This document shows positions 15,361 to 52,668 of a stretch of 64,000 nucleotides of DNA, piece after piece. This DNA comes from Astropecten irregularis (taxonomy: Eukaryota; Echinodermata; Asteroidea; Paxillosida; Astropectinidae): the NCBI GenBank assembly GCA_963971285.1, contig OZ020246.1, positions 24,278,494 to 24,342,493 of the forward strand. The letters run 5' to 3'. How positions within the stretch are numbered: position 1 is the stretch's first letter; every line of letters begins with the position of its first letter. A program made the position numbers and the translations under genes. The notes below the pieces were generated by a model. It made no database searches, was not told where the DNA came from, and saw only the letters and a program-made list of their open reading frames with translations.

Positions 15361-15391
15361 TTTATTATTATTATTATTATTATTATTTATT
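15361..15391. repeat. (TTA)n microsatellite
   Basis: Tandem TTA triplets directly after the diverged family A element. Confidence 0.85.
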
Positions 15392-17436: not shown

Positions 17437-17512
17437 ATGGCGAATTTCAACGACAGACAAGCTACACAGTTGCGGCTGTCCAAATTACGGCTGGAAATTC
17501 AACAATTATCAG
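17437..17512 (+). CDS. ZC3H3: ZC3H3-like coding exon 1
   Basis: Begins MANFNDRQATQLRLSKL at an ATG with G at -3 and +4. Donor TCAG|GTAGAT leaves one base. The short Leu/Arg-rich helix resembles the start of human ZC3H3. The same frame is open upstream to an ATG at 17332, so a longer N-terminus is possible. Confidence 0.65.
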
Positions 17513-20500
17513 GTAGATTGGTTATTACACTCATGACCTACTTGATATTTAATTATCGCCCGATACGGGTACAATTGAAGCGATAGGGCATTACCAAAAT
17601 TTGTTGCCCAGTTTTCGGACAGATAGGGTCTGTCTGCTAACGAACGTTAGCCTAAAAATAAAACTAAAAAAAAAAAGTAAAGCACTAATGACGTCACAAA
17701 ATCCCCGGATGTCAGACAAACATTGTCTAACACACGTAATGTACATGCACGCGCACACCCACACACGTGTGCATGGTTGCAATGTTTGTCGGATCGGATG
17801 CTATTTTTAGTGTTAGTGCGGAGCGCTATTGCACAAAATTTACGTGTAAGTTGGGTCATGCCTCATGGGGGGCCCTGCGACCTGTTTGTCCGAACATCTG
17901 AATGTGACGTCACGAGCACGGAGCCCTATTGCACAACCTACATGTAAGGTCTGTCACCATATACTTCAAGGAGGCTTCTGTGTTAACGTAGCTAGTAATT
18001 ACTAAATCTGAATCCCCATATCATGTCATAAACCTTTCCCCTTGACCTTGTTGCCTCGAGTTTTTGTCTCACCGACACTGACATAGTCTAGACTTAGTTT
18101 CGATGAGAGTAACCCACTGACATGGGGACTGGGACCTGACATGACTGGCACGGCCACTGGTCATGCGTTTGTACAGTTATTTTAAATTTCTGTATGCAAT
18201 ATGTAATGTAATATCTTTTAGGAAAGATACCACTGTTGAGAATTTATAAACAATATTTTTTTTCTTTCTCAATATTAAATACAGCTCTGTCTTTAACATA
18301 TTCTTCCAGAATCTCTGAATCGACCTATTAAGTCAAGGCCAACATCGTCCAACTACAATGAGGAGTCCAAATCTCAGCCAGCTCCTAGTCCTAGATACAC
18401 CAGTGAGCTTGAGGCCAAGTATCTCGGGAAACGATTTGACAGCAGCCAGTACATGTCAACATCGGGGCAGCTCTCGAAGAGAAGTCCAAGTTGGACCAGC
18501 GATCGGGCCTCTGGAGTTCCAGAACAGTGTCCAGATGTGCCGCTTGATTCATCTGTACATTCAACAAGGACTGCTATCTCATATGAGCCTCATGCTAGTA
18601 CGTCCTTCTATCAAGGGATGGAGACCACGTCCACACTCTTGCCTGCAACTCAGCCATTTAGTCTTTCTGGGAAGCTTGCAATCCACAGGCCCAGAGAAAC
18701 AAGTCAGCATTCATCCTTTGAAGATACTCGTACCCTCACACAATATCAGGATGGATCTTTGATGAGTAGCGGTAGCCGGTTGAAGGAGATTGAAGACAAG
18801 TATCTGCACCATAATATTGGATCTGTGTTGACCAAGCAGAGGTCGGATACTGCCTCCAGCCCCTTTGGTGCTTCCACGTCGGGCAAGGGCTTGTCATCTC
18901 ACAGCCTGTCCTCTCTTCGACAAAGCAGAACCTGGACTTCGCCAAGACTCAAGGAAGAAGCTGCTGTCGTGAAGAAGGTTGAACCAACCTCACCAGTCAG
19001 GAGCAGCAGCAGCAGCAGCAGAAGCTACAGGTTGAATAATAAACACAGTAAATACTCCTGGAGGCAACCGAGTACTCATACAAGGTCAGATGACGACCGA
19101 AGGCCATCCTCAAGGTCTGAACCTTCTCGCACATTGTCGAGCAGCCACATTAGTTCAGGGTCAAGAGGCCGGGCCTCTCTCACTGAGAGAGAAGCACCTA
19201 GGCACAGGTCTTCAGAGACAGCCCGGACTCGGACTTCAGAGTCTCACAGCTCTCACCGGAAGCCTCACAGCAGTCATCCAGCGCATCAATCTAGCACATT
19301 GTCCAAAACCAAAACGTCCAGTAGCCAGAGTAGTTCCCACTACACATCCAGATCTAAGCCTAAGACCACCGCTTCCAGCAGTGAAACCAGTAGATCATCA
19401 AGTCATCAGTCCTCAACCCAAAGGAGAAGTCACGATGACTTCCGGAGTCGTTCAGGTTCGGGTTACATCAGCAGCAGAGCCCGTGGCACCACATACACAA
19501 GAGGCAGAGGGTTTTCAGGCTCAAGATCTCTTGGAAGAGACCAGGGGTTCTTGTCAAGCAGAGGTCATACCTTCCTGACACGAAGAGGTCGTGGGTATAC
19601 AACCTTCAGAGGGCGTGGATGGAGAGGCTACAGCTCACCGAGGGGCAGAGGTCGGGTATCAACCAGAAGCAGGGGTGGGTTTGTGAGAGGCCATTCCTCA
19701 CCAAGCACATCGAGACATTGGAGGGCATCAGACCGAGATAGCTATCACGGAAAAGAAAGAGGTATTTACAATCAACCACTCAACAGTATGTTATGTGCAG
19801 AATAATGCAAATCACAATACCATGATACTGAAATAATATTTCAACAGTATGCTTGTGGGATCTTTAATTTTTTAGAGCCTTAACTTGTTGAATTCAAATC
19901 AATGAATGTTTCATTGGCATTTGTCACTTTAAGTCAGTGTTGTAGTAGAGTACGAGTACGAGTACTTTGTCATGAGTTGGAGTATTAGTAGCTGGCGAGA
20001 ACAAGTGTTTTATTAGGAATTGACACAGTTCATTAACTTAAAACATGTACAGTGGGTGTAAGTAACGGTGAATCCTTTTATATTAAACTAGCAAATTTAT
20101 CTCTCTCTCATACAGTGACACCCTCATCTTCCAGGAAGTCCACACAGAGTAGTTTCCACTCCAGATACGCCCTGAGGACATCAGGTGGAAGGCATGCCCA
20201 GAAGAGACCGCTCTCATTCATGGAAAAGTAAAGCAAACATTGAAATAACATCGTCACTGTTCTGAAACCAGAAGAAAAAATTATAATCAACATGTGATCC
20301 ATACAATTAATAAACTGGGCCCAATTTCATGGAATTTGTTACCGTAAGCAAACATTCTTCGCTTACGATTGCATTTGTTTTTGCTTACGGTTAGTGTATT
20401 TCACAAAAGAATTGTCTTTCTGGCTTACGCTTAGCAAGTAGACTTTCTGCAGAATGCATATGACAGCTTTTTAGCAGAAAAAAAGTCAAGGTTAGCCTAG

Positions 20501-23500
20501 ACATTTTTCGCTAGCCGGTTAAGTGCCGAAAGTCTTGCTTACGGAGTCCAAAGATAGGCCTTAACTGATTAAAATTGGTCCCTGCTCATTGACCAAAATA
20601 ATTATCTGGGGCTGATTTCAATAATTAATGCTTTACGATCATCACTAAAGCCCAAATCCATCGCTAAACGGAAAATTGATCGCTAATTTGTGTAGCAATT
20701 TTCTGTTTAGCGATGGATTTGGGCTTGAGCGATGGTCACAATTAGCGTTAGTGAAATCTGCCCCTTAAATATATAAAATGCTTAGAGTTAGCCGGGCCCA
20801 ACGTTTCCATTGTAGCAGGATCTTCTGAACATGCAGCATAATCAACATATTGGGCATTGGAGTTAACTTTAGTTCATTTGTCTATTTTCTGCACAGGAGA
20901 AGGCAAACAGTACTCAGCAACACTCCTGTTCTCCTGAGGTCAAGGTACAACCTTGTCAAAGGTCACCGCAGCAGCGTCCACAAGCCTTCATCATCATCGA
21001 TGACCTCCTCTCTGATTCCAGCGAGAAAGACAGCCAGCGTCAAGAGGCTCATGACAGTCAAGAATACCAAGACGCGACTCATCAGAAGAGCAGAAGGTGG
21101 GTGTGGCCTAAGCAGATTCATCTCATATAGAACAAATATTGCTAAGCTGATTTTTCATGCTAAGCAGAATTCACAAGCAGTCATGTTTTATTTTGGTTGG
21201 TACCCTGTTTCATGTGCTTAGTAAATTTTAGCAATCTGGGCCTGTTCGCAAATGCGATCAGTGATCCTGTTGATCCGGATCCCATTTTTGCGTGTCCTGC
21301 ATGGGATGTGGATCTGCAAGATCACTGATCGCGTGCGTGAAACAAACAGGCCCCAAGTCAAGCAGCTTTATGAAAGAAGGCCCAGGATTCTGCTTGGCAT
21401 TAGCGTTCATAGTAGTGATAGGGGATTGGGGGCTTGGCAAGTGAAAATCTTGCAAGGATCTGTTGACGCCCTTGGAAATCACACAGCAGTGCTAACATAA
21501 ACTCGAGATATAATTAATCTTTTTCATGAGAGTAAACGCAGTGCAGTGAATTGGGCCAGTCTCCAGATATTAAGTACATTGGTCGAAATGTCCATTAGAC
21601 CGAGGACCGAGTCTAGTGATTTCAGTGTTGGTCTAGTAAAGTGTGTACTGCACTAGTCCAGCTGTCTAGTGATTTTGTTTTCCTTGCACAAATAAAATGG
21701 TTCCTAAACTGATAATTTTTGACACAATATTGCATACAATTACGATTTTCCTATGTACATGAAGGCCACAGGTCTAGTAAAAATAGTACAGGTCTAGTAA
21801 AATGCTTCAGTTACTAGACCTGCTGTCCAGTGCTTTTTTGCACAAAATTCGAGCCCTGAAGTGGAGTACACATCAGTCCAAACATTGAAAAGACTTGTGG
21901 GCCTGTTCGCGGAGAGGTCAGAAGTGTGGAGAGAAGGTATATGAGAACTAAGTTGTGGGACAGTTTGTGCTAAAGTTTAGCACACAAAACCCCATAGGCT
22001 GGCTATCTACGAAAGGGTCTACTTCAAACTTCTCCTAGCTTGTTTGATACTATATTAATATTTTTGGTTTGATTTCATTTTGTTCCCTTTCAATTTTAGG
22101 TGAAAAAAGGTCACCAGGTTCCCTAGTCACCCTGCAAGGCAGTAAATACAAGCTTCGTATAAATCGCTTCAGCAAGTCGTTGCATCGAATCCCAAGTAGT
22201 TCCCAAAGTACACACCGCCGAGATGATAGATCTTCATCAGACCCCAGCATGTCCAGGAAAGCCGTCCAGACTGCTAGTCGTGCCAGTCGCAGGCTGGTTG
22301 TGAAATCCACGATCACGTCAGTCACAAGGAAAGTCGCAAGGTATGTCGTGAGATTTTTAAACTTTAATAGCTTCATTTTTTCTGTGTATTAAATGTCTTG
22401 ACCCAACCAGTTTGAATAGCCCAGGGGCCTTTCTCAAAGCCAGGCTCCAGCTTCGGCTCCGGCTCCGGCACTGCCTCCATTTCGTGAATTCATTTCAAAA
22501 TTACAGGTATCAAAATAGAGGCTTTTGGCAACAGTTAGGAAGATTCTCTGGTTTGAAAAGGACAACAGAGCATCAGCTTCAATGGAAAACCACAACGTAT
22601 AATTTCATCGTATGAAAACAGAGATGGAGCCGGAGCCGAACTTTGAGTAAGGCCCATGGTAAAAACATTCTGGAGCAATACCCCACCTCCCCAAACACAC
22701 AACCATCTACCAAGCCAGTCTCTATTGATGTATGAGCATTATGTTTAACGTATACGTACCACCTCTGGGCCTATGTAAATTCACTACATAGAAACAAGTT
22801 GTTACAGTTTTGGGAAGATTTTTCACGGCTTTTCTAGATCAATTTCTTGGCTTGTGTACTTTTATATGCCATTGATCGAGCTAAAGTTGGCTCCAGCTAG
22901 AACACAAATAGCAAGTTCTCATGTTCTCTGCGTGAACAGTCACGTCCTACAGCGCAGCATCTACACGAGTCTGGCCGCCAAGCACCGCACCAAGCAGCAG
23001 GCCAGCACCAGGCAGTACTGCAAGTTCTACAACCTGTACGGCCGCTGCAAGAGGGGCGACGACTGCCCCTACATTCACGACCCAGAGAAAGTCGCTGTCT
23101 GCACAAGGTAAGAACTGTGATTGCTCTAGGATCATTCAACTCATGGTCAGTCTGGGAATTTAGTCCTTGAATGGAGAGAGTGAAGTCTTCTTCCAGAAGG
23201 AGCTCTTGCATTAGAAAACCAAGGAAGGGGAAAAACGGAAGCCATGGCCTTCTTGACATTCTTTCCTTGAGAGGTTCCTCCAGTCCATACTCCCTCAGAC
23301 GTAGGATTCACATTCACCAGATCACCCTCCCATGATGACCACGGCAAGCCAAGACTTCAGCTAGTGAGTCTGCCTACAGGAGGTCTCTGGTTCGAATCCT
23401 GTCTGAGTTAATAGCTTGTGATGACTGCAACATCAGGGGGGGGGCAAATCTTATTTGTCTTTATGAACCTGGGGTCGATTTCACCAAAATCATCGTAGCT

Positions 23501-26500
23501 TACTATCAATCGTAGGACTTGTGATGCATTGCAGCCCTTTGTAGGATACAATGGGTTACGATCAATCGCAAGACTTCGTGAAATCAACCCCAGGTCATCC
23601 TGCAGTGCCTCAGTGCATTCCATGCAGATAATACATCCAGTTCATCTAGTATCATCATAGATTCCTGCAAGCTTTTTTTTAGAGGGAATCCTTTTATGTA
23701 CCATAGTACAAGTACTTAATTTTCGCATCTTTATTCTTGATAGGTTTCTCAGAGGTACCTGCCCTAAAACTGATGGATCCTGTTTGTTCTCTCACAAAGT
23801 GTCAAAAGAGAAGGTAAGAGGTTTTTTATGAAGGTCATCTTTGACTGGGATAGAAAGGCAGAGGCAGCATGAGATGGAAAATGATTTACTGAAGCAAACC
23901 AGAATGTGGTGGCAACACTATTCCACTGTACAGACTAACAAACAAGCAGAGAAAATGAAGAATTCAATTGCAATGTCATGTCTCATCGCGGTGAGCAACC
24001 ACCTGACAGAACAGACAAACAAGCTGACAAAATGTAAAAGTTGGTCGCAATGTCATGCCTCACTGAGGTGAGCAACCACCTGACAGAACAGACAGACAAG
24101 TAGACAAAAAGTTCATTAAATTCCTTGGTATGCACTTCGTCTTGCGAATGTTACCTGGAATGTAGATAGCTAAAGCCCACCGCACATTATACGATCCGAC
24201 ATTCCGACTAGGACCCGACTGGTTTTTGGAAGGATCGCAAAGCATTCTGGGAGTCTTAACCGTGATTGTTCCCAGTCGCAGACCCACTCTGATGGCCAGT
24301 CGGCAAGATTCGACTGTCGAATCACGGTTAAGACTCCCAGAATGCTTTGCAATCCTTCCAAAAACCAGTCGGGTCGTAGTCGGATCGTATAGTGTGCGGT
24401 GGGCTTAAGGATACGTCAGACAGCTTTACAGTCATGATATCATGCTTCATGGGTTTAGATGGCGGTGTGTTCCTACTTCCTACGAGGTGTCTGCAACAGG
24501 GACGACTGTCCCTACTCTCACGTCAAGGTCAGCAGTACGGCCACCGTCTGCCCGGACTTTATCAAGGGTTATTGTCCACGAGGAGCTAAGGTACGCCAAC
24601 CTCTAAGGGGAATGGGGCTATTAAAGGGATATTGACTGGGGCCAGGTTCCAGCTCATTCAGGGAGAGCTAACATTTCCTTAGAGATTCTCTAAACTATTC
24701 CATGAAAGCTGACATTATAATCTGATATTGTTTTCTTAAAGTTATTGAGGGGGAAGCCTTGTATTTGCTCAAGAATCAGTTCATACAACAAATCTTTCAT
24801 AGAGCTGCTTAAGCACCAAATTTGCTTAAGCACCAAAAACCTTGGTGAACAGAATCAGTATGCCAGCCAAAACTCCTTGTGAATGTTATGCTTAGCAAAC
24901 AATTGCGAAATACAAGTCCAAAGCAGTAAACATCACATGAACATTTGGTTGGTAATCCTGATCAAGGAAGACTCTTCATGCTTAAGCAAATTTTTTTTTG
25001 CGTAAGCAGCTCTATGAAATTGGCCTCTGGTTTTGTTTTTAGATTATTAAGGGGAGCTAACATTTGCTCAAGGATCAGTGCATACAATATTAAAAAAATA
25101 TGATATTGTCTTTTCATCTTATGAAATCAAATAACTCAATTTATTTTCATTGAAAAGTGAACAAAGAAAAATTAACTGGAGTGGGATTTGAACCGGCGAC
25201 CTCCTGAATACCATACAGGCTCTCTACCAACTGAGCCATCCAGCCCTACGTTGGTGGTGTCCCTAAAAGTCAATTATCTTTGTTCATTTGGGATCAACGA
25301 ACAAAGGATCATTTCATCGATACACGCAGCAATGCTGCAACCTGGGAACGGTACATGGGGGATCACTCAAAGATGATACAGCTTTTTAATCAATGTAATC
25401 ATCAAATAACCACAAGGGAAACTGTTATTTTCATTATTTTGTCATTTCAAACAAAGACACAAATCATGGGGTTATTGATTAGGCTGAAAAAAAATTGATG
25501 TGTTGCCCTCAGCAACCGACCGTAAAATGCCAAAACTTTTGGTCGGGATTTTTATTTTTTATTTTTCTCCGAGTCGTAAAGTATAAAAACTTTTTTACAG
25601 AAAATGTCAGATTTAGCAGTAAAAAAGCGTGTCTCCTCAAAACGACCCAAGACCGTTGATTTATAAGCCCTGGTGACCATACATCCTGTATTTATTCTTA
25701 AATGTTTGAAAGTCGGCCAAAAAAAAAATTGTTTTTTAAATCGACCGACCGACCCAAAATTTGGATTTTTCCACTTGAGGGCAACACAACAATTATTTCT
25801 TTGGCCTTATGGAACATAGTCCAATTTTTGTTGCTCATCCAAAAATTACTTGATCAAATTTCCCCAATCTCTCTTCGTCTTTGTTCCATACGCTCTAAAA
25901 AGATATTTTCATGGTACCATTAATAATTTGGGAATTAATTGGATTAATCTATTGGATTTCTGTCATTTAATAGTGCAAGAAGAAACATGTACTGCACTGT
26001 GCAGAGTACACCAAGACTGGCAAGTGTAGGAACGGCAAGAAATGTCCACTGCTGCACAAAAGGGACTCTGTCACGACCAGTAAAGGCAAGACCAAGACCA
26101 AGACCAGACCTAGCAGAGGAGAGAGAACCGAGGCAGAGGGAACAGAAGAAAGGTCAGTGTGGAGACGGACTCTAGACTCGGGAGTGCGTTCCACTCCAGC
26201 TAACTACCATTTTCAAACCAGTCATTGAAAAGTGAACAAAGAAAAATTGACTGGAGCGGGATTCAAACCGGCGGCCACCTAAATATCCAGCCTATCCAGT
26301 TGGTGGTGTCCCCAATAGTAAATTATCTTTGTTCGTTTGGCAGTCAGAAGCCATGAAACCACGCACACACACCCATACTCCAGGGGTCATTTCATTGATA
26401 CACGCAGCAATGCTGCAACCTGAGAATGGTACATGGGGATCACTCAAAGAGGATACAGCTTTTTTAAGGCAATGACCAGGGGCACCAATGCAATGACCAT

Positions 26501-29500
26501 GTACACCATAGGTTGACTGACTGTCCTCTGTACAGTGGCAAGGAATGGACCGTTCCACAGTGTATGATAGAAAGCCTCTCTGTGCTGTATTAACCTGTAA
26601 GGTCAAGTCCACCGGAATTCCAGAAGGTCTCACGACCCTTTAGCTGCAAATGATGAGGTCACAGCTGGTCACATCGAATGGTTAGCACGGACCTTGAACC
26701 GGGCATTTAAACCTCCAAGGTTCACTACTTTGGTCCCTTTGTCCATTTGGTTTGCAAGTTAACGTTGACAGCCTGGTCCTGGTATGGCTCCCTTGGTGAT
26801 TTCCAATCAAATATTTATGGGTCCTCTGTCTCCGGCCTGATGACCCATTGACAGTTGTTGCATTGGCTCACATTGTTCAATATGCATATTTTGTGGTTCC
26901 AAGTACTATTTGACTTGTCCATTCTTGTCTTGTTATTCATTTGTTACGTTTACTGATGTGATTTCTCATTGGAAGTAATGAAAGTCTTGGAATATTAAAG
27001 TCCTTGCCATAAAAAGAATTTGCCCAAATCCATTTTCTTTTTAGTTTTTGAAGGTTTTGGTACGTATAGAGCCCAATCACTGAAACTTGATATGCATTTT
27101 CTGCACCAATTTTGTCCTAGTCCGAAGAATATGCCATAAGAAGAATATACTCGTAGTAGAGTTGTGCATTGGTTCTCTCCTATGCTACGAGGGTTTTCCT
27201 CCCTCCACAAAAATCAAACACTTTCGATCTCAGGCTCCGTAATCATAATGGATTGCCAGTGTGGCTGGCAGCCGAGGGTGCTAATGAATACCAGCAACCC
27301 GTTGTAGCCAGCGCTTTGTAACTGAAAAGAAAAGGCGCTTAATAAATTGATTAATTATAGGATTCTGTACAGTTTCAGATTTTGGCAGATTCAGGAAGGT
27401 TCTTCTAAAATAAATGGAAGTAGGAAAAGGGGTCTTATAAAGGATACAACTCGGTTTAGACTTGCTAATAAAAACCTATCTCCAATTTTTTTCTAAACAA
27501 AGAAATCCAGCAAAACAAAACACCGAAGCAATCAGGAACAGTGGAGAAATTTATACAGAATTATTGTTGTGATAATGTTGGTAAATATTTCAGGTTTTCT
27601 GTGTTTCATTAGTATTGTATCACCACTATAAATGCCTGTCTTTCCTCTTTTGCACTAAAGGAAAAAGAGACCCAGAGTGGAGGAGACAAGAACCAACACT
27701 CCGTCATTTATCAAACTTCCCTCGGACAGTGCATTAGATAGCACAGCGCCCTCATTGCCAGCCTCGGGAGAGGCAGGGAGCAGCGTGCCGTCTAGGGATG
27801 CTTCGTCGGCAGAAAATCTCCCGCCGACAACACGAACGAGTGACGATAGTCAGGGCAGTAGCATCATACCATCCTTCATCAGGTTGAGGTCCAGCGAGCG
27901 GATTAAGAAAACAGCGCCCTCTACTGCCGTCAAGCAGGAACCCGTCGGATCGCTCCGTGTCACCAGAGCTAGCGCCAGAAAGGCGGCATCCACCAGGCCC
28001 TCAATCCGTAGTCCTCATCGGAGTAAAGCGGCCCCTGGAGAGACTTCTGGCCAGTCTTCCTCCGCCAAACCTGACGGTAAGGATGGAACAGTGACGGCGA
28101 CCTCCTGCTCTTCGGAGGGAGATGTTAGCGGGAGCAGCATGCCGTCCTTCATCGAGCTGTTTGCTGACGGAACCCTCGACGATTCCATGGAAGATTCTTC
28201 AGATACTGGACAAGGTGAGTCTAGTGGTCGTTGGAAACTTCCCAGTTGAACAAAATGATATGGAGGCCTGCATTTGGCTGTCTACCACAGTTCCTCTTGC
28301 TGCACTTGCAGCTTCCCTTTGGGTTTTGTACTTCTCTTAAAAATGTGTTTATACAAACTTGTTTCATTGAAATGTTCCCTTCCATTTTCAACTTCAACTT
28401 GTTGAAAATGGAAGAATGTTGAATAGGCCATGCTCTATGTATTCCTGTCATTTCGCCTTAGAAAAAGGTCCTGCTGGGTCGAAACTTCAGGCCCTACTAA
28501 CCCTGAGGATTATATTTTTCAGGTCATTATTTTGATTGGTGAGCAGTTTGCAGCAGTTTATTAGTAGTAGTTTGTTATCTAGTTGTGTGTAGCATTTGTA
28601 AGTGGTGAAGTAAAGGTGCTGATCATTCTTCAGTTGATAACCTACCTTACAGTATACCTGTACCTCACACCCCTAGCCCATCGACACCCATACCCCTACC
28701 TTGCAGTCAACCTATACTTCACAACCCTAGCCCCCCGACACCCATACCCCTACCTTGCAGTCAACCTAGATACTTCACACCCCTAGCCCACCGACACCCA
28801 TACCCCTATTTTACAGTATACCTGTACCTCACACCCCTAGTCCACCGACACCCATACCCCTATTTTACAGTATACCTGTACCTCACACCCCTGGCCCACT
28901 GACACCCTTACCCCTACCTTGCAGTATACCTGTACCTCACACCCCTAGCCCACCGACACCCATACCCCTATCTTGCAGTCAGCCTACTTCACACCCCTAG
29001 CCCACCGACACCCATACCCCTACCTTACAGTATACCTGTACCTCACACCCCTAGCCCACCGACACCCATACCCCTACCTTGCAGTCAACCTACTTCACAC
29101 CCCTAGCCCACCGACACCCATACCCCTACCTTACAGTATACCTGTACCTCACACCCCTAGCCTACTGACACCCATACCCCTATCTTGCAGTATACATGTA
29201 ACTCACACCCCTAGCCCACGTACCCCTTACACCCAACATAATACATTTTCTCCTACATTGCCTACAAGCCAATTAATTTTAAGCAATCATTAAAACTGCA
29301 AGTCATCGACCTCTACACCAAGTTGCCTGCACACCATCTGGACATTATAGACATACATATGTAAAAACCACATGAATCCGATCAGCCTCTGAATTACCAG
29401 TGGACGGAAAACCACATGGCTAGAGTTTCATGCACATTACATGTAATGAGCTGCCATGGTTAGTTTAATGGCCATGTTTATCCCCTTTATTCAGTTAGTG

Positions 29501-40821: not shown

Positions 40822-40951
40822 GGGGTCGATTTCAAAAAGCCCTACGATCGATCGTAACTAGTTACGATCGATCGTATCCTACGTAGGGCTGCAATGCATC
40901 ACAAGTCATGCGATTAATAGTAAGTTACGATGAGTTAGGTGAAATCAGCCC
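40822..40951. mobile_element. Foldback element, family C copy 4
   Basis: AGGGGTCGATTTCAAAAAGCC / CTACGATCGATCGTAACTAG, then TAGTAAGTTACGATGAGTT and GTGAAATCAGCCC at the right. Confidence 0.7.
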
Positions 40952-42187
40952 ATGGTTGGAAAATGTTGATAGCTTTGGCAGCTTTTAAATATGTGTATGC
41001 TATGAAGAGCGTTGGAGTTTTGTTTCCCACAAATAAGCATAATAGTATTTTGGAGTGTAATACACATGTACACCAAGGACATCTCTCTGAGTTAAGTTTT
41101 GTGAATGATTTTTTTTCTTCAGCATTCTGTAAAAGTTTATTATCTAATTTATATCTTGACTGCATTCTTATTTAATAGAATTTGTGGAAAGTAGTAAAAT
41201 GCACAGTTTAAGATTATAAATTATAAATGCCTATTTTTGGTTCAGCTGTTAAAATTGCATTAAAAAGCTAATTAGAAAGTTTCAGATTCATCGACTTGAT
41301 GATGTGAATTTATTTGTATAATGATTTTTGTTTGGTCATCTGAGCCTATTATATTCATTTTCCCTCAGTCTAGTCTTTCTTCAAGACTTGTTTTTTTTTT
41401 AACCCTTGATTGAGCATTGCACTGCACTTGAAAAAAAAACTATAGCTAAGCAGCATGATCGGCTGTAACACACGGTAGGCCTTATTCATGAGGCATCCAT
41501 TTTGTCACTTTGTATACCCTTTGGAAAAGATAACACCAATTCTAAAAACCAAACGGGTACCAGACTATTTTGAATCCAAGCCTCGGTTTGATTGCGCTGA
41601 TTCGAATGCAGGATGGATGCAAATGAATAAGGTCTAATGCATGGGTTAAAATGTTTCCATCAGTAATAAGGTCCTATTACTGTGCCATATGGGTTTTTCC
41701 TTTCCATTTAAAGGCAGCTATGTTACTCAAACAGGGGAAAAAAGAAACATGTTGGATCAATCGAATCTATAAATACCTGGATTTGATTGATGGGTCCATT
41801 CTAATCGCTGTCTGGCTTTCTCGTTTCCAATCTATTGGAGTTAACCAGCTTTAACTGGCTTTATTTGAATTCCAGAAATGATTTGGTTGTTCTAGTCAAA
41901 TCATGTTGCCAGCCCTGGCCTCGGTGAACTCGCGGTGTCATGGCCAAGTGCAATGGAACAGTGCACAACCTATTGGGGGCGCTATATTTTGACTCTGCTA
42001 AAGGCAGTAGATTGAGTGACTTGTGCCTGTGGGGGACCCGTATTAAAGGTTGCTCCAACCGTGCCCATTACATGTCTAATTAAGCATTAAGGAGCATAAG
42101 AAAGCTTATTTTGGGTAAGAGCGCCGAGTTGGGTGCCATCTTTGAGTACAAGTACCGTGAAACAAACCAACAAATGGGCAAATAAAC

Positions 42188-42318
42188 AATGAAAAGTTAA
42201 CAAAGAAACATTGTCTGGAGTGGGATTTGAACCAGCAACCAACAGTCAATTGTTCTCTGCTCACTTTTTAATGACTTAAAATTCAGTCAGTTTCCCTTGT
42301 GGTTATTTGATGATTAAG
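42188..42318 (-). mobile_element. tRNA-derived SINE copy 4 (deleted)
   Basis: AAAAGTTAACAAAGAAACATT then GGGATTTGAACCAGC, after which the tRNA half is missing and the inverted arm CAGTCAATTGTTCTC follows. The tail TTTCCCTTGTGGTTATTTGAT is also found near 25395-25425 (inverted) and 57375. Confidence 0.65.
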
Positions 42319-42738
42319 CAAATAAACCAACAGATAAACCAGGAATATGCTTATAGTGAAGTTATTATAAGTATTTGAATTGAAATATATTCAACTCCCA
42401 AGAATGAAAGTTAAATTTCATTTGCAAAGTTCCATGATGCTGTATGCTGGCACCCCAAAAAGTCAGTGAAACGCCATCATTAGTCCAACAATATTACATA
42501 ACTTAGTTCTGCACAAAGGTCATACAGTTAGCAGCCATCTTTGGTCCAATGTGTAGTTGCTGTATATAAATCTTGGATTTAAACAGCTCCAAAGGTTAAC
42601 AGTCCCCTAGCACTGAACAGAGTATAATATTGTAAGAAAATGTTGAGTTCCCATCAGACAAGAGATTTATTTGTTTTCCATCATACATTGTGAACTCCAA
42701 ACTCCCTGGCATTCACGAACACAGTCATGTTGCGACAA

Positions 42739-42972
42739 GGGGCCAATTTTATAGAGCTGCTTAGCACAAAAATTCGCTAAGCATGACATTTAACATTTCT
42801 GTCTTAGTAAAAACAGGATTAACAACCAAAATGTCCGTGTGTTGTGTATCACTTGCAATTGTACTTTGGCCGCTGACAATGATTATCAAATGGCATTTTC
42901 AATGGTGGTTTGTTTTATTGTTTTTCTGCTAAGCAATTTGTTTTGTGCTAAGCAGCTCTATGAAATTGGTCT
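42739..42972. mobile_element. Foldback element, family B copy
   Basis: GGGGCCAATTTTATAGAGCTG / CTTAGCACAAAAATT on the left; TTTTGTGCTAAGCAGCTCTA / TGAAATTGGTCT on the right. Confidence 0.75.
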
Positions 42973-43055
42973 AAGTTCACTGCTGCAAGTTGTGGGTATG
43001 ATCATGGAGGATTCCTTCCTCCATGGTATGATGCAGCTCAAGACGGATCCTGGGG

Positions 43056-43126
43056 ATTAATCCACTCTAGCTGGTTAGCTGGTACCCAGCTTCGGTCTGG
43101 GTACACGCTAACCAGAGTGGACTAAT
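43056..43126. repeat. Compact hairpin with TTCG loop
   Basis: ATTAATCCACTCTAGCTGG is inverted to CCAGAGTGGACTAAT. The inner GTACCCAG pairs with CTGGGTAC around CTTCGG, a C(UUCG)G-type tetraloop if transcribed. No second copy noticed. Confidence 0.7.
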
Positions 43127-43784
43127 CTCTAGGAATTCCCAGCTCAAAATTTCAGTCCGTGGGCTGATTTAGTAGAGACCGAAATTTGCACGAAATCACT
43201 TACCTGTCTTACCAAGCATAATTGACATGCAAACTGGATTCCAGATGATTTTGTAGCTAAATGTGTCCTGCTAAAAAGATCTGCTATAACCTGAAGCCGA
43301 CCCCAGATCGACATAATAGTAGGCCTACCCCGAACGGGACCAAGTTGCTAACCCTTCTAAGATAATGATGGTTACTCCATCAACGGAGATCATTGTCTGT
43401 AAGTTCAGACACATTAATGTTTACCCCACGGGATGCAACATCAGTCGTCGGGGTCTTATATCCCTCGTGAATTTCACAACCCTAGTTCTCACCCCGAGAC
43501 CGGAGTCGTCTAGAAAATGATTTTTTTTCTTCTACATTTTCTCTTTCAGCTGAACAATTTTACCACATTTTTTCTTTTTTTTCAAAAACAAACTTCATCC
43601 CCTAGTGAGTCTGCCATCAGTCAATGCAATCATGATTCACATCGAAAAGACTTCGTCCTATTTTTATCTTTCAATGGACCTTTAGTTATTTGGTCCTGTG
43701 AGGACGCTGTATAAACGGAGGCCATCTTTGGGTACAACTTCAAGCCAGAAGAAAAAAGTGATTCTAAAGAAGTAAACTGCCTTC

Positions 43785-44250
43785 TTAAAAGTAATATCAT
43801 ACTTTGGTTTTATCAAAGAAATGCAGATTCATGGGCAAAAATATCAAGACAGATACAGGAACAGTCATCTGTGAAAATTTCAGTCCCATACGATGCCCAC
43901 TTTTTGAGAAAACAGTGAAAAACGTCCACAGTATTTCTTAAGTCTTTTCTCGTTTATTTTTGATCCTAAGTTATACGTTTTGGTTTCTTACCAAAGTATG
44001 ATACTACTACAGGATTGGTAACATACCCAAACAGAAATGTTCACAGATTTACGTAGGCCTATAACTTTCAGGATATGAAGATGGTGCTGATAGAAACATA
44101 CCGTTACAATATTGCAGGTTCAAATGCTGTATTTATCCAGAAATTAGTAAAACAACGACCGATAACCGTTTCATCTCGGGGTGAGATAAAAACGTCTGTG
44201 AATAGATTTGAAAATACCGTGAGCGTTTTTCACTGTTTTGTACAGTTTCC
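43785..44250. mobile_element. TTAA-family MITEs, rearranged pair
   Basis: 43785-44010 is a shortened subfamily 1 copy (TTAAAAGTAATATCATACTTT to CCAAAGTATGATACTAC). It runs straight into a second partial copy starting at 44011 (ACCCAAACAGAAATGTTCAC, AAGATGGTGCTGATAGAAAC, TTTCATCTCGGGGTGAGAT). Likely one copy nested in or fused to another. Confidence 0.6.
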
Positions 44251-44480
44251 GGTGATGACATGAGCTGAACATTTTACAGATTTGTTTTTTATTCAATGAC
44301 AAATCAAATTATGAACAGTCTGCAGCTGTTCTGTCACCTTTACCAATCCTGCAGTATGTCTTTGATCTAAAATCTCTATTTAGTGGAACTATAATGTAGG
44401 CCTAACCTTTGGCAACAAACGGCGGAAATCACGACGCATGAAAAATTTCCATTCCATGCTAGGCGCCATGGCAGAGCCCT

Positions 44481-44740
44481 GGGGCCAATTTCACTGATGG
44501 CCCTGCTCAGCACAAACATTAATGCTAACCATGAAACCATTTACCAACCAAATTTCCATGTGTTTTGTATCATTTGTCATTGTTCTTTGGCTGTTGTCCG
44601 CTGACCATGAATATCAAATTGAATTTTTAATGGTGGTTTGTTTTATTAAGCAAGATATTTTGTGCTTAGCATTTTTTTATGTGCTTTTAAGAACAGAAAA
44701 AAATGCTAAGCACAAAAACAGCTCCATGAAAATGGCCCCT
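44481..44740. mobile_element. Foldback element, family B copy
   Basis: GGGGCCAATTTCACTGATGG / GCTCAGCACAAACATTAATG on the left; AGCACAAAAACAGCTCCATGA / AAATGGCCCCT on the right. The interior ATGAATATCAAATTGAATT is conserved. Confidence 0.72.
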
Positions 44741-45590
44741 GGGCCGACCCCCTTTTTCTTCACTTATGATTCCCAGGACAGCCCTTTAGGGACACGACGT
44801 TTGACCCAAGCAGGGAAAAAGAACCCAGTACACCAATACCAAACTTCCAGTTGTCCAAATGAATTCCCCCTCCCGAATTGATTAATTAAAAAACCTGCTG
44901 GCGTTTCCATGACAACATGATAAAAAGCACCATTTAGAAAACAAATGTGGTCGCCGTATTACGAGGTATATGGAAATCCTCGGAGAATTTGGGGAGAGCA
45001 ATTTCCTGTTGCTGTGATGGAAACGTCTGACTTTCATTTAGTTTTAATCTCGGAAGACATAAATTTCAACTTCAGACGAGGTCACGACGCTGACCTATAT
45101 TTGTTTGTACTATACAGGGGGTGGGTGGTGGACCAGCGAAGACCACCGGGTACCTGGCGTCTCAAAAAAGGGAGAGTGAAAACACCAGCTACACACATGG
45201 ATGTTTATGGCCCCTATGGGCCACGGTACCTCGAGGTTAAGATCGTGTTTTTGTGTTTGCAAGGCGCTCGGCAAGGAAAGATTTAAAGGGACCTTGTCAT
45301 TTTTTCTTTCTCTTACGAAGAATGGAATCCTGGTCATAATTGAGGCTCCATTGACCGACCTCCAAACGATCATGGCGTGCATGGTGCCCCCAGCTCAGAT
45401 TATTTAATTAAGGGGGTCGTTATAATTGTTTTAGAGGGATTTGGAATCAAGGATAATGAGGGGCGGGGTCGGATTAGAACACACGATGATAGGAATCGCG
45501 TTATTCCCAATACCCGCTCCTTGAAGCTGTCTTCATCACGAAGTTTCCACAATTCATGAGTCTTGCATGTGCTAACTTGGCTTTCGTTCT

Positions 45591-45692
45591 TGAAAAGTGA
45601 ACAGAGGAAAATTGGCTGGAGCGGGATTCGAACCAACGATCACCGGAACACCGCACCGGCGCGGCGCTCTTACCAACTGAGCTACCCAACCA
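45591..45692 (-). mobile_element. tRNA-like element, variant of the SINE head
   Basis: On the minus strand, GGTAGCTCAGTTGGTAAGAG (A-box) and GGTTCGAATCC (B-box) follow tRNA spacing and end in the shared arm GCTCCAGCCAATTTTCCTC. The anticodon region (CGCGCCGGTGCGG) differs from the other copies, so this is a separate subfamily. Confidence 0.65.
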
Positions 45693-45739
45693 TATTGGCT
45701 TTCGTTCTGTTACAGCCGAGGACTACAGCAGTAAACCTT

Positions 45740-45852
45740 GGCCTGTTTGTTTCGCCGTGGATGCATATCGCAGGCAGACTCGCTAAAATGTGATCCAGAG
45801 CAGCTTTTGCGCGCTGGATCACTGATCGCATGCCTGAAATAAAAAAGGCCCT
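45740..45852. mobile_element. Foldback element, family G copy 3
   Basis: GGCCTGTTTGTTTCGCCGTGG on the left; GGATCACTGATCGCATGCCTG and AAATAAAAAAGGCCC on the right. More diverged than the other two copies. Confidence 0.55.
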
Positions 45853-45899
45853 TACTTTGGGAAATAAACTAGCCCCTCTTGCCGTTTGTAAGCTCATTC

Positions 45900-46271
45900 T
45901 TAACGGTATAATACACAATTGGTAAAGGTCGCAGAGAACAGCACTCATACTTTGTTTGATCAAACATGTACATGAAATAATAAACCTGTGAAAATGTTCA
46001 GCTCAATCGGACATCTGAGTCACGAGAAAATAGCCAGAAACCCGTCTCAACATTTCTTATAAAACATAAAGAATGGTTTTGATCTTACCCCGAGATCAAA
46101 ACTGTTTTCGGTCTTTGTTTTACTAATTTCTGGATAAATACTCCATTTCAGGCAGAAATATTTCCACGGTATGTTTCTCCTACCACCATCTTCATACCCT
46201 GAAAGTTATACGTCAATCTGTGAACATTTCTGTTTGGATAATGTTACCAATGCTGATCCTGTACTGTACCA
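45900..46271. mobile_element. TTAA-family MITE, subfamily 2, copy 2
   Basis: TTAACGGTATAATACACAATT on the left; TGATCCTGTACTGTACC on the right. Interior GAATGGTTTTGATCTTACCC and TCTTCATACCCTGAAAGTTA as in 37038-37401. Confidence 0.65.
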
Positions 46272-46472
46272 ATCTCTTTATGTGCAGGTCATTGTCACTT
46301 TATTAACAGTGCAAAAAGCTACGTGTGATTTGTCAATACTGAGCTTCACGTATCAAGAAATGTTCGGATTTATGACAAGACGGGGGAAACCGAGGTTGCC
46401 TTGGAGGGTTGGGGGTAGGGAGACGATGTTCTCAAGGCGACGGTAATAACAGAGCACCACAGAGAGGCACTT

Positions 46473-46593
46473 GGGGCCTGTTTGTTTAATGCAAAGGATC
46501 ACGGATTCTGCTGATCCGGATCCCATTTGAGTGTACCCTGCATAGGACATGGATCCCTAAATCTGGGATCCTTTGCCTGAAACAAACAGGCCC
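46473..46593. mobile_element. Foldback element, family G copy 2
   Basis: GGGGCCTGTTTGTTTAATGC with AAAGGATCACGGAT is inverted to ATCTGGGATCCTTTGCCTG and AAACAAACAGGCCC. The centre GATCCGGATCCC is identical to copy 1. Confidence 0.78.
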
Positions 46594-47331
46594 TAGATGT
46601 CATGTGGACTGGAACTTGGAAGAGTACAAGGTAAAAGGCCGGATACGTTGCTTGGTTTTATAGGCCTACTTGTACGATGTGGCCATAAAACAACATTCAC
46701 ATTTTTCACACCACCAAACCAAAATTGTAAACACATTTTCTACCATCCCTCCCACCGCCCCTATTTCTACTCTTGACCCCGCCTCTTCTAGTTCTCCCTA
46801 AACATCTGATACTCCAACCGCAGCATTATTATTCCCAAGTTCTTGGAATAATGTCTATAATGGTAAATGATATGACAATGTGCAACCACAACCGCATCAG
46901 CTGGTTGCGCTTGGTACATTATACATCATACTTGTATAATATACCGCTTTGAGCTACAGCATGTATAGCCTCATACGCCTTATGCAACCCCCGTCCTCGG
47001 TAAAAATACAGATCGATAATGTGAATAAATTATGCAAATATTCATAATTATGTAGGCCCATGAGCTATAATACAGTTTTCCGGTTGTGCAATAATGACTG
47101 GAGCCAAGGCCATTCCAGCAGTAGGCCTATTTAATGTGGAATTAATAACCGGATCTGAATAACCCTTGTATAAGGTCAAATAATAATACCAGTTTCTCGT
47201 CCATTTTGCATGAAACATTACGGAATTCTGCCAGTAGTTCTCCTCTTGTTCGTGATTTTAAATAATATTATTAATGCTCCCTTTTGCAATCGCTATTGGG
47301 AAACAAAACCAGAGAAAGATGGCCGTTTTGG

Positions 47332-47698
47332 TTAAAGGTAGTATCATACTTGGGTGGCATACCGAAGCAGAAATCGTCATTGATTTACCTATAACTTACA
47401 GGGTATAAAGTTGGTGATGGTAGAAACATACTTTTAAAATATTTCTGTCTGAAATGTTGTATTTATCCAGGAAGGAGTTAAACTAGTAAGCAGTAACCAA
47501 AATTATTTTTGATCTTTTAAAGATCAAAAATAAAAGAGAAAAGACTTAATGTAGTGGCCATTTCCACTGTTTTCTCAAAAAGTGGGCACCGTATGGGACT
47601 GGAAATTTCACAGATGACTGTGACTGCATCTTCCTTGATATATTTGCCCATGAATCTATATTTCTTTGACAAAAAACCAAAGTATGATATTACCTTAA
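47332..47698. mobile_element. TTAA-family MITE, subfamily 1, copy
   Basis: TTAAAGGTAGTATCATACTTG ... CCAAAGTATGATATTACCTTAA. The central palindrome is TTTTTGATCTTTTAAAGATC. Full length. Confidence 0.8.
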
Positions 47699-48205
47699 AA
47701 AAAAGAAGGAGAAAGAATTTGCCGTTTTGAATTCACAATCTTGAAAAAAGTGCTGGAAATTTCAAAAAAGGTTCGACGAGAAACTATTATCTTTTTTTTA
47801 ATGCATGGGGGAGGATTCTACGGTCATTGGCAATACACAGTTGCTATACATGTACACAGTACAATGCATATTGCGGGTTCACTGCATATTTTGTGTCATC
47901 ATGGTATTGTATAAAAGTGGCACACACCCACTTAGTACACAGTGCTTATCATTGCACAACAACATGAAATTTAGTCTCCGTCGTTCCGCTAGTCGGTTAC
48001 ACAAGTTTGATAAACCGCTTAAGCACAAAATAATTGCTTAGCATGAAATGCCTTTCTTCATAGGAAATGAGGATTCCCTGCCAAATTTCCCTGCGATATT
48101 TTATTGATGTGGACTTGTTTTCTCCTGTTTGCTTAGCGTAAATTCACACAAGGTTTTAACTATAGCAATTTGATTTCATTAAGCAAGGTTTTTTGTGCTT
48201 AAGTA

Positions 48206-48441
48206 GGGGCCAATAGAGCTGTCTATGCACCGAAATTTGCTTAAGCACCAACAGATTTGGTAGATAAAATCAGTATGCCATCCAAAACTCCTTGTGAATG
48301 TTATGCTTAAGAAACAATGGCCGAATACAAGTCAAAAGCAGTAAACATCACATGAAATTTTGGTTGGTACTCCTTTGATCAAGGAAGACTTTTCATGCTT
48401 AAGCATTTTTTGTGCTTAAGCAGCTTTATGAAATTTGCCCC
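48206..48441. mobile_element. Foldback element, family B (CTTAAGCACCAA type)
   Basis: GGGGCCAATAGAGCTGTC / TTGCTTAAGCACC on the left; GCTTAAGCAGCTTTATGAAA / TTTGCCCC on the right. The interior is nearly the same as 24790-25029. A partial second copy (48014-48200) abuts on the left. Confidence 0.72.
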
Positions 48442-50458
48442 AGATCTCTTTAGCCGCTGTCCTTGGTTTGTCGAGAACGGATAAATGCCGGTCGTTATTG
48501 GCCCTTAATCATACATCAGTAAGCTTCATTAATTTTCAGTAACTGTAGACTTGAATACATCGTTATTGTTTCCTCTCAGTCAATAATGAGGAATTCCTTG
48601 CATGCTCGCACACAATTACAGTTCAGAAGTCGAGGAGGGTTGCTATAAAATGACTCAATTATTCTCTTCTCGGTGAGATTCCATAAAAAGTGCAATCTGA
48701 TAAATCACGGCGACTTGGTCTCTGGGACTCACAGTTTATGAGTTCGGGAAATTGTCTTTTCAAGTGGCCTGAGACGTCAGTGAATGATTTTCTCTCCTTT
48801 ACTTTCTGAATACTATTCTTCTTTTCCTCCCTTCAGTCGGAAACATCTTATGACTAAATTGAAAAGAACTCTGGTTTAGAACTACATACGCACGTGCTTA
48901 AAGTCCTCCAATTGTATCCATTCTAACATGACAATGAGACCAAAATCATGGATGAAGTGGCCGTGAAATCGGCAAATGATCCCCGGGTTAAATTGGTTCC
49001 AGAGCCGGCTCCTTCGTTCTCCGTGGCCCGGAGGTCCAGGGGATGTGAGCTTCGTGTTCGAGTACCCGTTTTTTTTGTAACGGAACAGTGATTGTGTGAA
49101 GTATAATACAGATGGAATGACCACTTAACCTATATTAAATGGGGCTGGGATATAGAATTGGTAATCGCCGAAAAGGGATTTTCAGTTTTTGATATAATGT
49201 AGGCTTTCACGGTTAATTATTTTTCTGCCAAATGCTATCATAGACTATATTGTGTAGGCTTACTGCATGTAGTTGTATAGGCCTATCGTATTTTGTTCAG
49301 AATTCTCTCTTTTTTTCTCCTAATATTATATTCTATACAGAAATTAATAATAATAAAATGCAATGATTTAGGCCTACATCAAGTTTATTGTTATTAGTTC
49401 ATTTTCAGTATAGGCCTTGTCAAACTTAACTCAAAATAATTTTGATGCAGTGCAGGCCACTCATCTCAACTTGACTCGGCCAAATTTGTGTCAAACTAAT
49501 TCAGATAATTATGCAGACTCAAATTGTCTGTGCAATAATAATAATATGAATTTTTTTCCCAATCTGTAACGGTTGCATAAGGCCTTTTCACACGCGAGTT
49601 TTTCTCATGCTTGAGAAATCTTACAAAAATGCCATCATGTGAAAGGACACCAATGCTTGAGAGTGACTTACGTTCCTGGTGAATCCTTGAGAAATTTCTC
49701 AAGCATAAGAAAATCTCGCAAACATTTTTTTTAGCAGCGTGTGAAAATTCAAACAATAAGATATAGAACGAAAGCTGAAATTTGGGCGGGACCAGTTGTA
49801 CCTCCAACTGAATTATTTAATAATAGAAGTTGTTATATGACGTTTTTACGAAACTCATTGATCGGTTACATATAGCCTAGGCCTACATTCCGAGTGCTGT
49901 TTCATGAAAACTAGCATCGCCTATTGTATAAGCCACTGTTAAATCCCAACTGAATTACTGAACAAACTAACCAGAGATTTAACTTGGCATGATCTGTATA
50001 TCCTAAATTCAATCATTATATCCCTGCCCAAACATTGATATTGATCAAAGGTTGTCGTTTGACAGTATTTGCACGATAGGCGTGCGTGTCCCTTTAAAAT
50101 CAATCCGCCTGGATAACGACAGTGAACGCGGTGAGTCAAACTTGTTGAATGGATTGCTAAAAGGGAATCACAAAAGGGTTTTATGCAAGTGTCGATTGCC
50201 TAACCTGTTGAAATAGGTGATATTTAAAGGGGCTCCCTCTGCTAGAATGAGTGCTGCATTCAGCTCTATGCAAGAACGGAGACATCTCGCCTTCACAATG
50301 ATAAAAACATGACAAATGACATTGTATGCAAATGAATGTGTTTTTTCTTAGACCTTTGATATTTTCAATTTTCTAGAAATTTCTTATCAATGTTTAACCT
50401 TCAGCATATTACGTCATGGGCAGGTCCAGTGTTTTATTTTTCTCGCATGGAGACCGAT

Positions 50459-50778
50459 TTAAAGGTACACGGTACATGTACTGTCATACTTTGGTAGGCC
50501 ATACAGTTGATAGAACAGCTGCGGTCTGTTCATAATTTAATTTGTCATGGAATAAAAACAAACCTGTGAAAAAGCACAATTGCTAGGTTTTGATCTCGGA
50601 TATCATAACTGCTTTCGGTATTTTGTTTTACTCATTTCTGAAAACAAACACAGCATTTCAAGCAAAACAATTTCCACGGTATGTTTGTACCAGGTCTATC
50701 TTTATACCCTGTAAAAAGTTATAGGTAAATCTGTGAACATGTTTGTTTTGGTTTCCTACCAAATTATGATACCTTTAA
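50459..50778. mobile_element. TTAA-family MITE copy upstream of Maf
   Basis: TTAAAGGTACACGGTACATG...CATACTTTGGTAGG on the left; CCTACCAAATTATGATACCTTTAA on the right. It ends about 330 bp before the Maf promoter elements. Confidence 0.72.
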
Positions 50779-51104
50779 ACTAGTACTTTATCGATATGAA
50801 TACAAATATTGCCAAATATTTATTTTTAGGGGTTTAGGCCGGGTCTGAAGTTCCCAATGTCAATGGTAATGCCTGTTTACTCCATACTTTCAGCTGACTA
50901 ACGAGTACAATGCACAAACTACAATATGTCTATTGTATTTATGCAAAGTCGTTACATGTATTTAAAAAAAAAACACTGCTCACCTTTGATCAATACAACA
51001 ACAGCGCGCACGTGGTTAACGAGTGATAAAATTTCGTATTTTGTATAACACAGTATGTAATATCATGCACGTGCGTGTCACTCGCTGAACGAAGGTCACC
51101 GATG

Positions 51105-51180
51105 ATTGGCTAAAAGTGATGTAATGATACCGATATGGAAGCTGGCCGTGACGTCACTGAATCGGTGACGGGGTATATAT
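51105..51180 (+). promoter_or_regulatory. Core promoter of the Maf gene (CCAAT, CRE, TATA)
   Basis: ATTGG (inverted CCAAT) at 51105-51109, a perfect CRE TGACGTCA at 51149-51156 and GTATATAT (TATA) at 51173-51180 lie in the expected order. They precede a GC-rich leader. Transcription would start near 51205-51210, giving about 450 nt of 5'UTR. Element spacing is classical; function is inferred. Confidence 0.72.
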
Positions 51181-51204
51181 CTGGAGTGCAGCGGTAGCGG
51201 CGGC

Positions 51205-51654
51205 TGTTGTTTGCCGTGAATTACAATCACGACTCCCCGGGATCCTCCACACCTCACGGCGGTTTGTCTGGTGAGCCGTCGCAAGGTCCTTTCCCTGGGG
51301 AATTGAGGTTGCCGTCTCAAATTTCTCTCCGGGGTTGTCCCAACTTCACCCTGGTGCGCTTTTCATCAACGCACGACCGACCAGACCGAGAAGAGCGCAT
51401 AAACAGACGGGGTGGAGTGAGGGATCGGAGAGAGAGGAGTGAGACTGGAGCGCAAACTAACCAAGTCATTTATTTGACAGACGAGACGGGGCAGCCGTCA
51501 TTTCGGCACAGCACGCTGACCTCGCTTGGGTCACGACGACTAGGCCCGCACTACCCCGGTACTAGCTCGGCGTGAGTTGGTTACACTGTGTGTGTGACGA
51601 CGGACCAGATCGGAAACCACCTGGCTCGCCCTCCCATCACACGGTGTCCAGGCG
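51205..51654 (+). other. Maf 5' leader without any ATG
   Basis: In about 450 nt between the predicted start site and the Maf ATG I find no upstream ATG. The segment is GC-rich and one non-Maf frame is open for some 120 codons (51207-51575), but only from non-ATG codons and in a different frame from Maf. Confidence 0.6.
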
Positions 51655-52668
51655 ATGGCAAGTGCCGCTCAGCCGCCCAGCTGTGACTTGAATACGGTGG
51701 CAGATCTAGCCATGGAATACATCCAAGATTTCGACCTGCTGCCGCTAGCTCTTGAACATGTCGAGGTGAAGCGCGAGGAACAGGCCAACTCGCTGGGAAC
51801 TTCCTGCCTGCTGCAGGGTCACGTCGCCGGTACCGCTACCCCAACCGGCGGCGGCGGTGGTACGACTACCGTGGCAAAGCGTCGATGCTCCCCGCCAACC
51901 AGCCTGCCCAACCTCGGCACGGGATCCCTGACTCCGCTAGTTGAGTCCCCGTGCGTTGACGTGCCCCATTCACCGGACGATCTGGCCCTCATACCCAGCC
52001 CGGTTGACATGGAGTACAAACCCAGCCTCGACGAGCTGTACTGGATGTCCAGCATCCAGTCCCTAACCACCATCAACAACTTGCAGTTGATGTCTCCAGT
52101 CTACAGCGACACGGGTGAGATGTCCACGACAATCTGCCCTTCCGACCTCGACTATGACAAATATTCGGACTGTTCTGGAACGCAGCCGCGCGATGAAGAG
52201 GATGATGATGATGATGACGAAGATGAAGATGAAGATGAAGATAGTGGCTCATCATCCGCGGCCGATTCAGACAGTACCGACCCAGGCGCACCCGCCGTGA
52301 CCAAGCCGACTAAAGACATATTTACCTTGTACCGCGACGAGGAGTTGGTTCGTCTGACCGTCAGAGAACTCAACCGCCAGCTTCGCGGCTACAAGAAGGA
52401 AGACGTAGTAAAACTCAAACAGAAGCGAAGAACACTCAAGAATCGTGGCTACGCCCAGTGCTGCCGCACTAAGCGTCTCAAACAGCGTCTAGACCTCGAA
52501 CACAGCCAGCTTTTTCTTCACACGGAGGTAAACCGTCTCAAGAAGGAGCTGGAGAGAGTTCAGCACGAACGAGATAAGTATCGCAAAGAACTCGAACTTA
52601 TCAAGAATGCTCGAATGAGAACAGGCAGCCTGCCGAGTAGCCCCGAGTCACCCGAGTACTACATGTAA
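51655..52668 (+). CDS. MAF-like: Large Maf bZIP transcription factor (intronless)
   Basis: 337 residues in one uninterrupted exon, as in vertebrate large Maf genes. The ATG has a strong context (GGCGATGG). The N-terminal activation domain has [11 protein letters not shown] (18-28), a VKREE sumoylation-type site (K39) and DELYWM (126-131), all hallmarks of MafA/MafB/c-Maf; small Mafs lack them. Ser/Thr-Pro sites lie between. A 17-residue all-acidic run (180-196) and a Ser/Asp stretch follow. The C-terminus has the extended homology region ([16 protein letters not shown]), the basic region [17 protein letters not shown] (258-274), a leucine zipper to about 310, and the large-Maf-like end [10 protein letters not shown]. 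It should bind MARE sites as a dimer and regulate transcription in the nucleus. Cys269 replaces the Ser/Ala/Asn usual in the basic region. I cannot say which vertebrate paralogue is closest, and a single pre-duplication gene is expected. Confidence 0.96.

Follow-up and report, generated by a model that had tools for sequence, protein, structure and literature searches.

The 64,000-nucleotide stretch of DNA considered here (hereafter the window) comes from the sea star Astropecten irregularis and corresponds to positions 24278494-24342493 of contig OZ020246.1 (C9), which with its 28.8 Mb represents about 6% of the 475.7-Mb assembly of 168 contigs. It carries two genes in tandem on the plus strand, a ZC3H3-type gene coding for a protein with CCCH zinc fingers (17437-38970) and, further downstream, a large Maf gene (51655-52668). 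The identities of both genes, their common strand and the position of the ZC3H3-type gene ahead of Maf had been named in an original prediction made from the letters alone, and are upheld by the gene models and by the CCCH and bZIP_Maf matches described below. Comparison of this genome with a human gene list indicates that the ZC3H3-Maf linkage was probably inherited from the deuterostome ancestor.

The ZC3H3-type gene comprises 11 coding exons with GT/AG borders (17437-17512, 18310-19761, 20116-20227, 20897-21096, 22100-22340, 22940-23107, 23744-23813, 24459-24590, 25974-26152, 27661-28214, and 38927-38970, all on the plus strand), which together form an open spliced frame ending in a single stop. 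A ten-exon model was discarded because its frame was broken between exons 2 and 3, and the addition of an exon starting at 20116 restored the spliced frame. Two ends of this exon, 20137 and 20227, are both compatible with an open frame; 20227 was chosen, and exon 20116-20227 is the least certain part of the model. The start codon, the last exon and the 10.7-kb last intron initially proposed are all retained in this frame. The last intron (28215-38926) measures 10,712 bp, and the possibility that it is a mis-call was rejected, as the acceptor of the short last exon is standard and the exon preserves the frame and carries the stop at its end. An array of a 54-bp unit (10.8 copies, 28641-29219) is located near the start of this intron, and a 268-bp inverted repeat (15916-16182 and 16504-16771, 96% identity) lies 0.7 kb before the start of the gene.

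Direct reading of the spliced translation reveals five tandem CCCH fingers towards the C-terminal part of the protein, encoded on the plus strand by exons within 22940-26152; the protein matches the Pfam family zf-CCCH with an E-value of 5.6e-22, Pfam counting three stretches. When compared by phmmer with proteins of solved structure, its closest relatives are CPSF4 and yeast YTH1. Human ZC3H3 is absent among the solved structures matched, hence the name ZC3H3 is based on a presumed likeness to the human ZC3H3 sequence. The whole genome was also searched with bZIP_Maf and CCCH profiles; the best candidates were scored, and copy counts hold within that reach. Four of the seven CCCH matches belong to the ZC3H3-type gene, whereas the others correspond to a CPSF4-like gene at a distinct locus on C11, another CCCH protein on C19 and an unread match on C27. 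CPSF4 is the other protein with five such fingers, and the ZC3H3-type gene is distinct from it. Among these best candidates, with the C27 match unread, one ZC3H3-type locus was found.

The large Maf gene consists of a single coding exon on the plus strand, which extends from the ATG at 51655 to a stop ending at 52668 and encodes 337 amino acids. The protein matches bZIP_Maf with an E-value of 1.7e-24 (86.6 bits) and contains the extended homology region, the Maf basic region and the zipper. It differs in its basic region, YAQCCRTKR, from human MafA and MafB, in which the corresponding residues are YAQSCR(F/Y)KR. In the phmmer comparison, the solved structures that it matches rank as MafA (4eot, 1.7e-24), MafB and MafG, with 89.7, 88.6, and 78.2 bits, respectively, and its bZIP region is identical to that of human MafA at 50 of 89 positions and to that of MafB at 47 of 89. 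Such identities are a poor guide to the distinction between large and small Mafs: the small Maf of the same genome shares 39 of 82 positions with this Maf and 43 of 82 with human MafA. Small Mafs lack a long N-terminal region, and the gene was classed as a large Maf on account of the approximately 226 residues that precede its bZIP region; the small Maf of the sea star, on C11, is a separate frame of 168 amino acids. The Pfam family Maf_N is hinted at, with 13 bits against a curated cut-off of 27. Five bZIP_Maf matches were obtained in the genome, namely this gene, the small Maf, and three proteins whose features suggest a CNC-type factor (C14), a Jun (C17), and an XBP1-like protein (C10). The best candidates scored thus include a single large Maf.

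The gap between the two genes (38971-51654) spans 12,684 bp, of which 31.8% is covered by repeats, and no other protein gene was recognized in it. The Pfam run covered 20 open reading frames (ORFs) of the window, including 14 located at 28.2-51.6 kb, seven of them in the gap. None of these 14 ORFs gave a match that reached the curated cut-off, the best match of the 20-ORF run (E-value of 0.012) being at chance level, in keeping with the original prediction, which recognized no other gene in these 12.7 kb. In the gap, the run covered ORFs of at least 90 amino acids, apart from the overlapping ORFs of a repeat array at 39.4-40.2 kb and an ORF at 45110-45394. A codon-usage scan marks three places in the gap: 45615 (score 15), 48950 (score 18), and 51228-51572 (score 43). 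The guanine-cytosine (GC) content in sliding windows climbs towards Maf, from 0.33 at 50500 to 0.62 at 51500, and the GC-rich stretch of the plus strand that immediately precedes the gene (50750-51654) likely contains the Maf promoter and 5′ untranslated region (UTR). It includes a 125-amino-acid ORF (51198-51575, plus strand) in a frame different from that of Maf, with coding-like codon use and no Pfam match, and the codon-usage signal at 51228-51572 likely reflects the 5′ UTR or base composition. A hidden gene between ZC3H3 and Maf was rejected, as none of the 14 ORFs scanned gave a Pfam match above the cut-off, with a reservation for the codon-usage signal at 51228-51572.

Side by side on one strand with ZC3H3 first, the two genes could have been kept in tandem by read-through or by a shared co-expression domain. 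The width of the gap and the promoter-like stretch in front of Maf argue against such a coupling, and shared expression is hardly to be expected of a gene for general RNA processing and a regulator of cell type; this is the least probable of the explanations weighed here. Among the repeats of the gap, an array of about 64 copies of a 10-bp unit (39472-40117) begins 0.5 kb past the ZC3H3 stop. A match resembling histidine transfer RNA (tRNA) lies on the minus strand at 45612-45692; it is one of three tRNA matches in the window, which were rejected as genes because their flanks are common to dispersed copies. Indeed, a family resembling short interspersed nuclear elements is present at 25147-25376, 26222-26464, 32474-32732, 45590-45694, and 57201-57266, three of its copies having tRNA-like heads.

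The human genes are presumably both transcribed from the minus strand, which puts ZC3H3 ahead of MAFA, in the order and direction found in the sea star. Their position as neighbors on 8q24.3, as originally proposed, is borne out by a published gene list for a human 8q24.22-q24.3 duplication, which contains the series TOP1MT, RHPN1, MAFA, ZC3H3, GSDMD (PMC5485587). Immediate adjacency of ZC3H3 and Maf is accordingly seen in two distant lineages, represented by the window and by the human list. In pig, signals of association close to MAFA and to ZC3H3 are separated by 82 kb on chromosome 4 (PMC5873431). Three of four families taken from the human list are found on C9, TOP1 at 2.7 Mb, CYC1 at 2.9 Mb, and BOP1 at 3.3 Mb from Maf. 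As C9 makes up about 6% of the assembly, the chance of three in four is about one in a thousand by a binomial calculated by hand, a figure qualified by the fact that the four families were the author's choice, made without a control set drawn from other parts of the human genome. TOP1 is the family to which human TOP1MT belongs. Human adjacency, one locus for each gene in the sea star and three of four families on C9 sustain the part of the original interpretation that concerns inheritance; the linkage is most likely inherited, which is also the simplest reading.

Alternatively, ZC3H3 and Maf may have met independently in the two lineages, an event that would be less improbable had both genes resided on one ancestral chromosome, and the comparison involves the two end lineages. 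The same immediate adjacency would nevertheless be needed twice, and with it, presumably, the same orientation, so that a double encounter is considered highly unlikely. Among the papers listed by a literature search, none is, by its title, on the ZC3H3-Maf pair or on Maf gene order; the main text of two animal gene-order papers contains neither ZC3H3 nor MAF (PMC8851819 and one other), and passages of three other papers add nothing about ZC3H3 (PMC10040775, PMC13359618, PMC10108528). The pair is probably an ancient microsyntenic pair, which illustrates well a phenomenon already known rather than one of a new kind, and perhaps also a regulatory block. The 2012 study of ancient microsyntenic pairs by Irimia, cited in PMC8851819, may already list ZC3H3-Maf. 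As in other ancient microsyntenic pairs and in genomic regulatory blocks, a developmental regulator stands beside an unrelated gene and the two are adjacent in distant phyla.

Gene structures, order, orientation, copy number within the reach of the searches and a partial conservation of contig content relative to human 8q24.3 were observed directly. Upon these, we give about even chances to the explanation that ZC3H3 and a single large Maf are ordinary orthologues, linked since the deuterostome ancestor and kept together at least partly by Maf control DNA located between them. Under this explanation, distal Maf control DNA would lie somewhere from the 3′ part of ZC3H3 up to the Maf promoter, and a break in this stretch would separate Maf from it. 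ZC3H3 would then play the bystander to Maf, the target, in the manner of genomic regulatory blocks, an idea set out in PMC8851819. In mammals, five MafA control regions (R1-R5) are found at positions -9389 to -6031, and a sixth, R6, lies at the promoter (PMC9033020). One of the longest methylation differences between alpha and beta cells is annotated to MAFA/ZC3H3 (PMC13121032), and ZC3H3 serves as a beta-cell methylation marker (PMC8137853, PMC10588141). According to PMC9741223, 34 genes make up an interval that extends from ZC3H3 to DGAT1 and begins at position 143437655 of chromosome 8; MAFA is also counted among the 34 there, which is inconsistent. If human MAFA starts, as presumed, at about 143.430 Mb, the gap would be about 7 kb and R1-R3 would fall within the 3′ end of ZC3H3. 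A regulatory cause of the adjacency is plausible in the sea star as well. The likeness lies in control DNA that would be found upstream of Maf, which in mammals too is presumably the ZC3H3 side.

Several observations weigh against a regulatory cause, and above all against the last ZC3H3 intron, which the original prediction had put forward as a natural location for regulatory elements of Maf. When six regions were compared for repeat coverage, with 264 kb as the source of repeats (the percentages are therefore lower bounds), the last intron was the most repeat-rich at 35.4%, followed by the gap, the stretch after Maf (22.1%), the rest of ZC3H3 (21.8%), and the stretch upstream of ZC3H3 (16.5%), the Maf coding sequence having none. 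The window alone as a source yields the same top order, with 32.2% for the last intron and 29.3% for the gap. Within the last intron, no repeat-free tract exceeds 1 kb, a narrower set of repeats giving a single one of 1,073 bp. In a genomic regulatory block, an intron of the bystander is often, though not always, poor in mobile elements, a trait that the last intron of ZC3H3 fails to display. Binding motifs point the same way. Nine motifs were counted in 36 motif-region tests with 100 shuffles each, and none of the nine is in excess over shuffles in the last intron; full Maf sites with at most three mismatches are at chance across the window (14 vs. 14.15 and 2 vs. 1.74), and Maf sites and islet-factor motifs were rejected as marks of the intron. 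Further afield, the fourth family taken from the human list, VPS28, lies on C22 rather than C9.

The part of the original interpretation that made the last intron a regulatory seat was thus not supported. Nevertheless, enhancers are short and can sit among repeats, so that the repeat load weakens the intron as a place but leaves the mechanism itself plausible. Control DNA would more likely reside in the repeat-free 48.5-50.5 kb and in the long stretch after Maf than in most of the last intron. The longest tract free of repeats from the last long ZC3H3 exon to Maf is indeed 48453-50477 (2.0 kb), which lies in the gap shortly before Maf, and the repeat map makes it a candidate for regulatory DNA. 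Longer repeat-free tracts are found upstream of ZC3H3, at 4571-7978 (3.4 kb, the longest of the window) and 12348-14744 (2.4 kb). FOXA-like sites occur 31 times upstream of ZC3H3 (3257-17436) where 18.4 are expected, a count that none of the 100 shuffles attained, the sole such case among the 36 tests. They also number 26 in the gap (17.0 expected, 4 of 100 shuffles as high) and 24 after Maf (17.1 expected), and since the counts are high in all three places, the excess is probably due to composition.

The adjacency may instead have been inherited from the deuterostome ancestor and have persisted through the slow pace of rearrangement alone, free of any regulatory tie, which PMC8851819 leaves open as a general alternative. 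A last intron that looks unconstrained in its repeats and motif counts is consistent with passive retention, as is a contig whose content is partly conserved (three of four families). What fits less well is that TOP1 lies 2.7 Mb from Maf in the sea star vs. one gene between TOP1MT and MAFA in the human list: the 2.7-3.3 Mb that separate TOP1, CYC1, and BOP1 from Maf indicate that local order has moved, and ZC3H3 and Maf are adjacent in both genomes all the same. Passive retention is a serious contender that we place somewhat below even chances. Were it the whole cause, the pair would still mark chromosome content that has been conserved in echinoderms and on human 8q24.3.

Should the pair have been kept by regulation, on the other hand, the locus would offer a view of large Maf gene control before duplication, and the DNA on the ZC3H3 side in an echinoderm could be compared, in its effect on Maf, with the upstream regions active in mammalian islets. 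A single large Maf was found here, as opposed to the MAFA, MAFB, MAF, and NRL of vertebrates, and the 12.7-kb gap is wider than that of about 7 kb presumed for human. In genomic regulatory blocks, the enhancers lie in the bystander, whereas the proposed intron is repeat-rich. In a bolder version of shared control, which we consider unlikely, a Maf control domain would already have spanned the 3′ end of ZC3H3 in the deuterostome ancestor; its present-day form in mammals would be the beta-cell control regions of MAFA, and the sea star would retain the domain with a single pre-duplication Maf.

Other genes flank the pair. A large exon of an SMPD3-type neutral sphingomyelinase lies on the minus strand at 1697-3256 (phmmer match to 5uvg, sphingomyelin phosphodiesterase 3, 1.5e-34; no Pfam family at the cut-off), head-to-head with ZC3H3 and 14 kb from it; the remainder of this gene was not found in the leftmost 1.7 kb of the window. 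An NCOA5 exon is located 59 kb beyond Maf on the minus strand (C9 24389834-24390109; 1v95, 9.4e-15), and minus-strand frames at 24385522-24393170 look by eye like the same gene. Between Maf and NCOA5, no other gene was recognized by eye, the codon-usage scan leaving scattered low-scoring pieces (the best, simple repeats aside, scores 38 at 24351024). In human, NCOA5 and TOP1 are presumably on 20q with MAFB, SMPD3 on 16q with MAF, and SMPD5 on 8q24.3. If these positions are right, the SMPD3-type gene, NCOA5, and TOP1 are pieces of one ancestral neighborhood whose parts were distributed over the vertebrate copies. A long terminal repeat retrotransposon (Gypsy-like by eye) with a long ORF lies immediately to the left of the window, at C9 24269541-24274485. 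Elsewhere in the assembly, a COX1 copy with seven in-frame TGA codons (C25:9951047-9952018) is likely a nuclear mitochondrial insert, while a COX1 without TGA on C131 (32162-33484) possibly belongs to a bacterial contig. The frame of the mitochondrial COX1 is open under genetic code tables 5, 9, and 13 alike, so that its openness does not tell these codes apart; under table 9, in which AAA stands for asparagine, the protein resembles animal COX1 at positions to which the other tables assign lysine. Judged by eye, the code is that of echinoderms and the gene order is sea-star-like, in agreement with the deuterostome origin presumed in the original prediction. Around the mitochondrial COX1, the genes COX1, ND4L, and COX2 are consecutive, with ND1 upstream on the other strand, the ND genes being named by eye.

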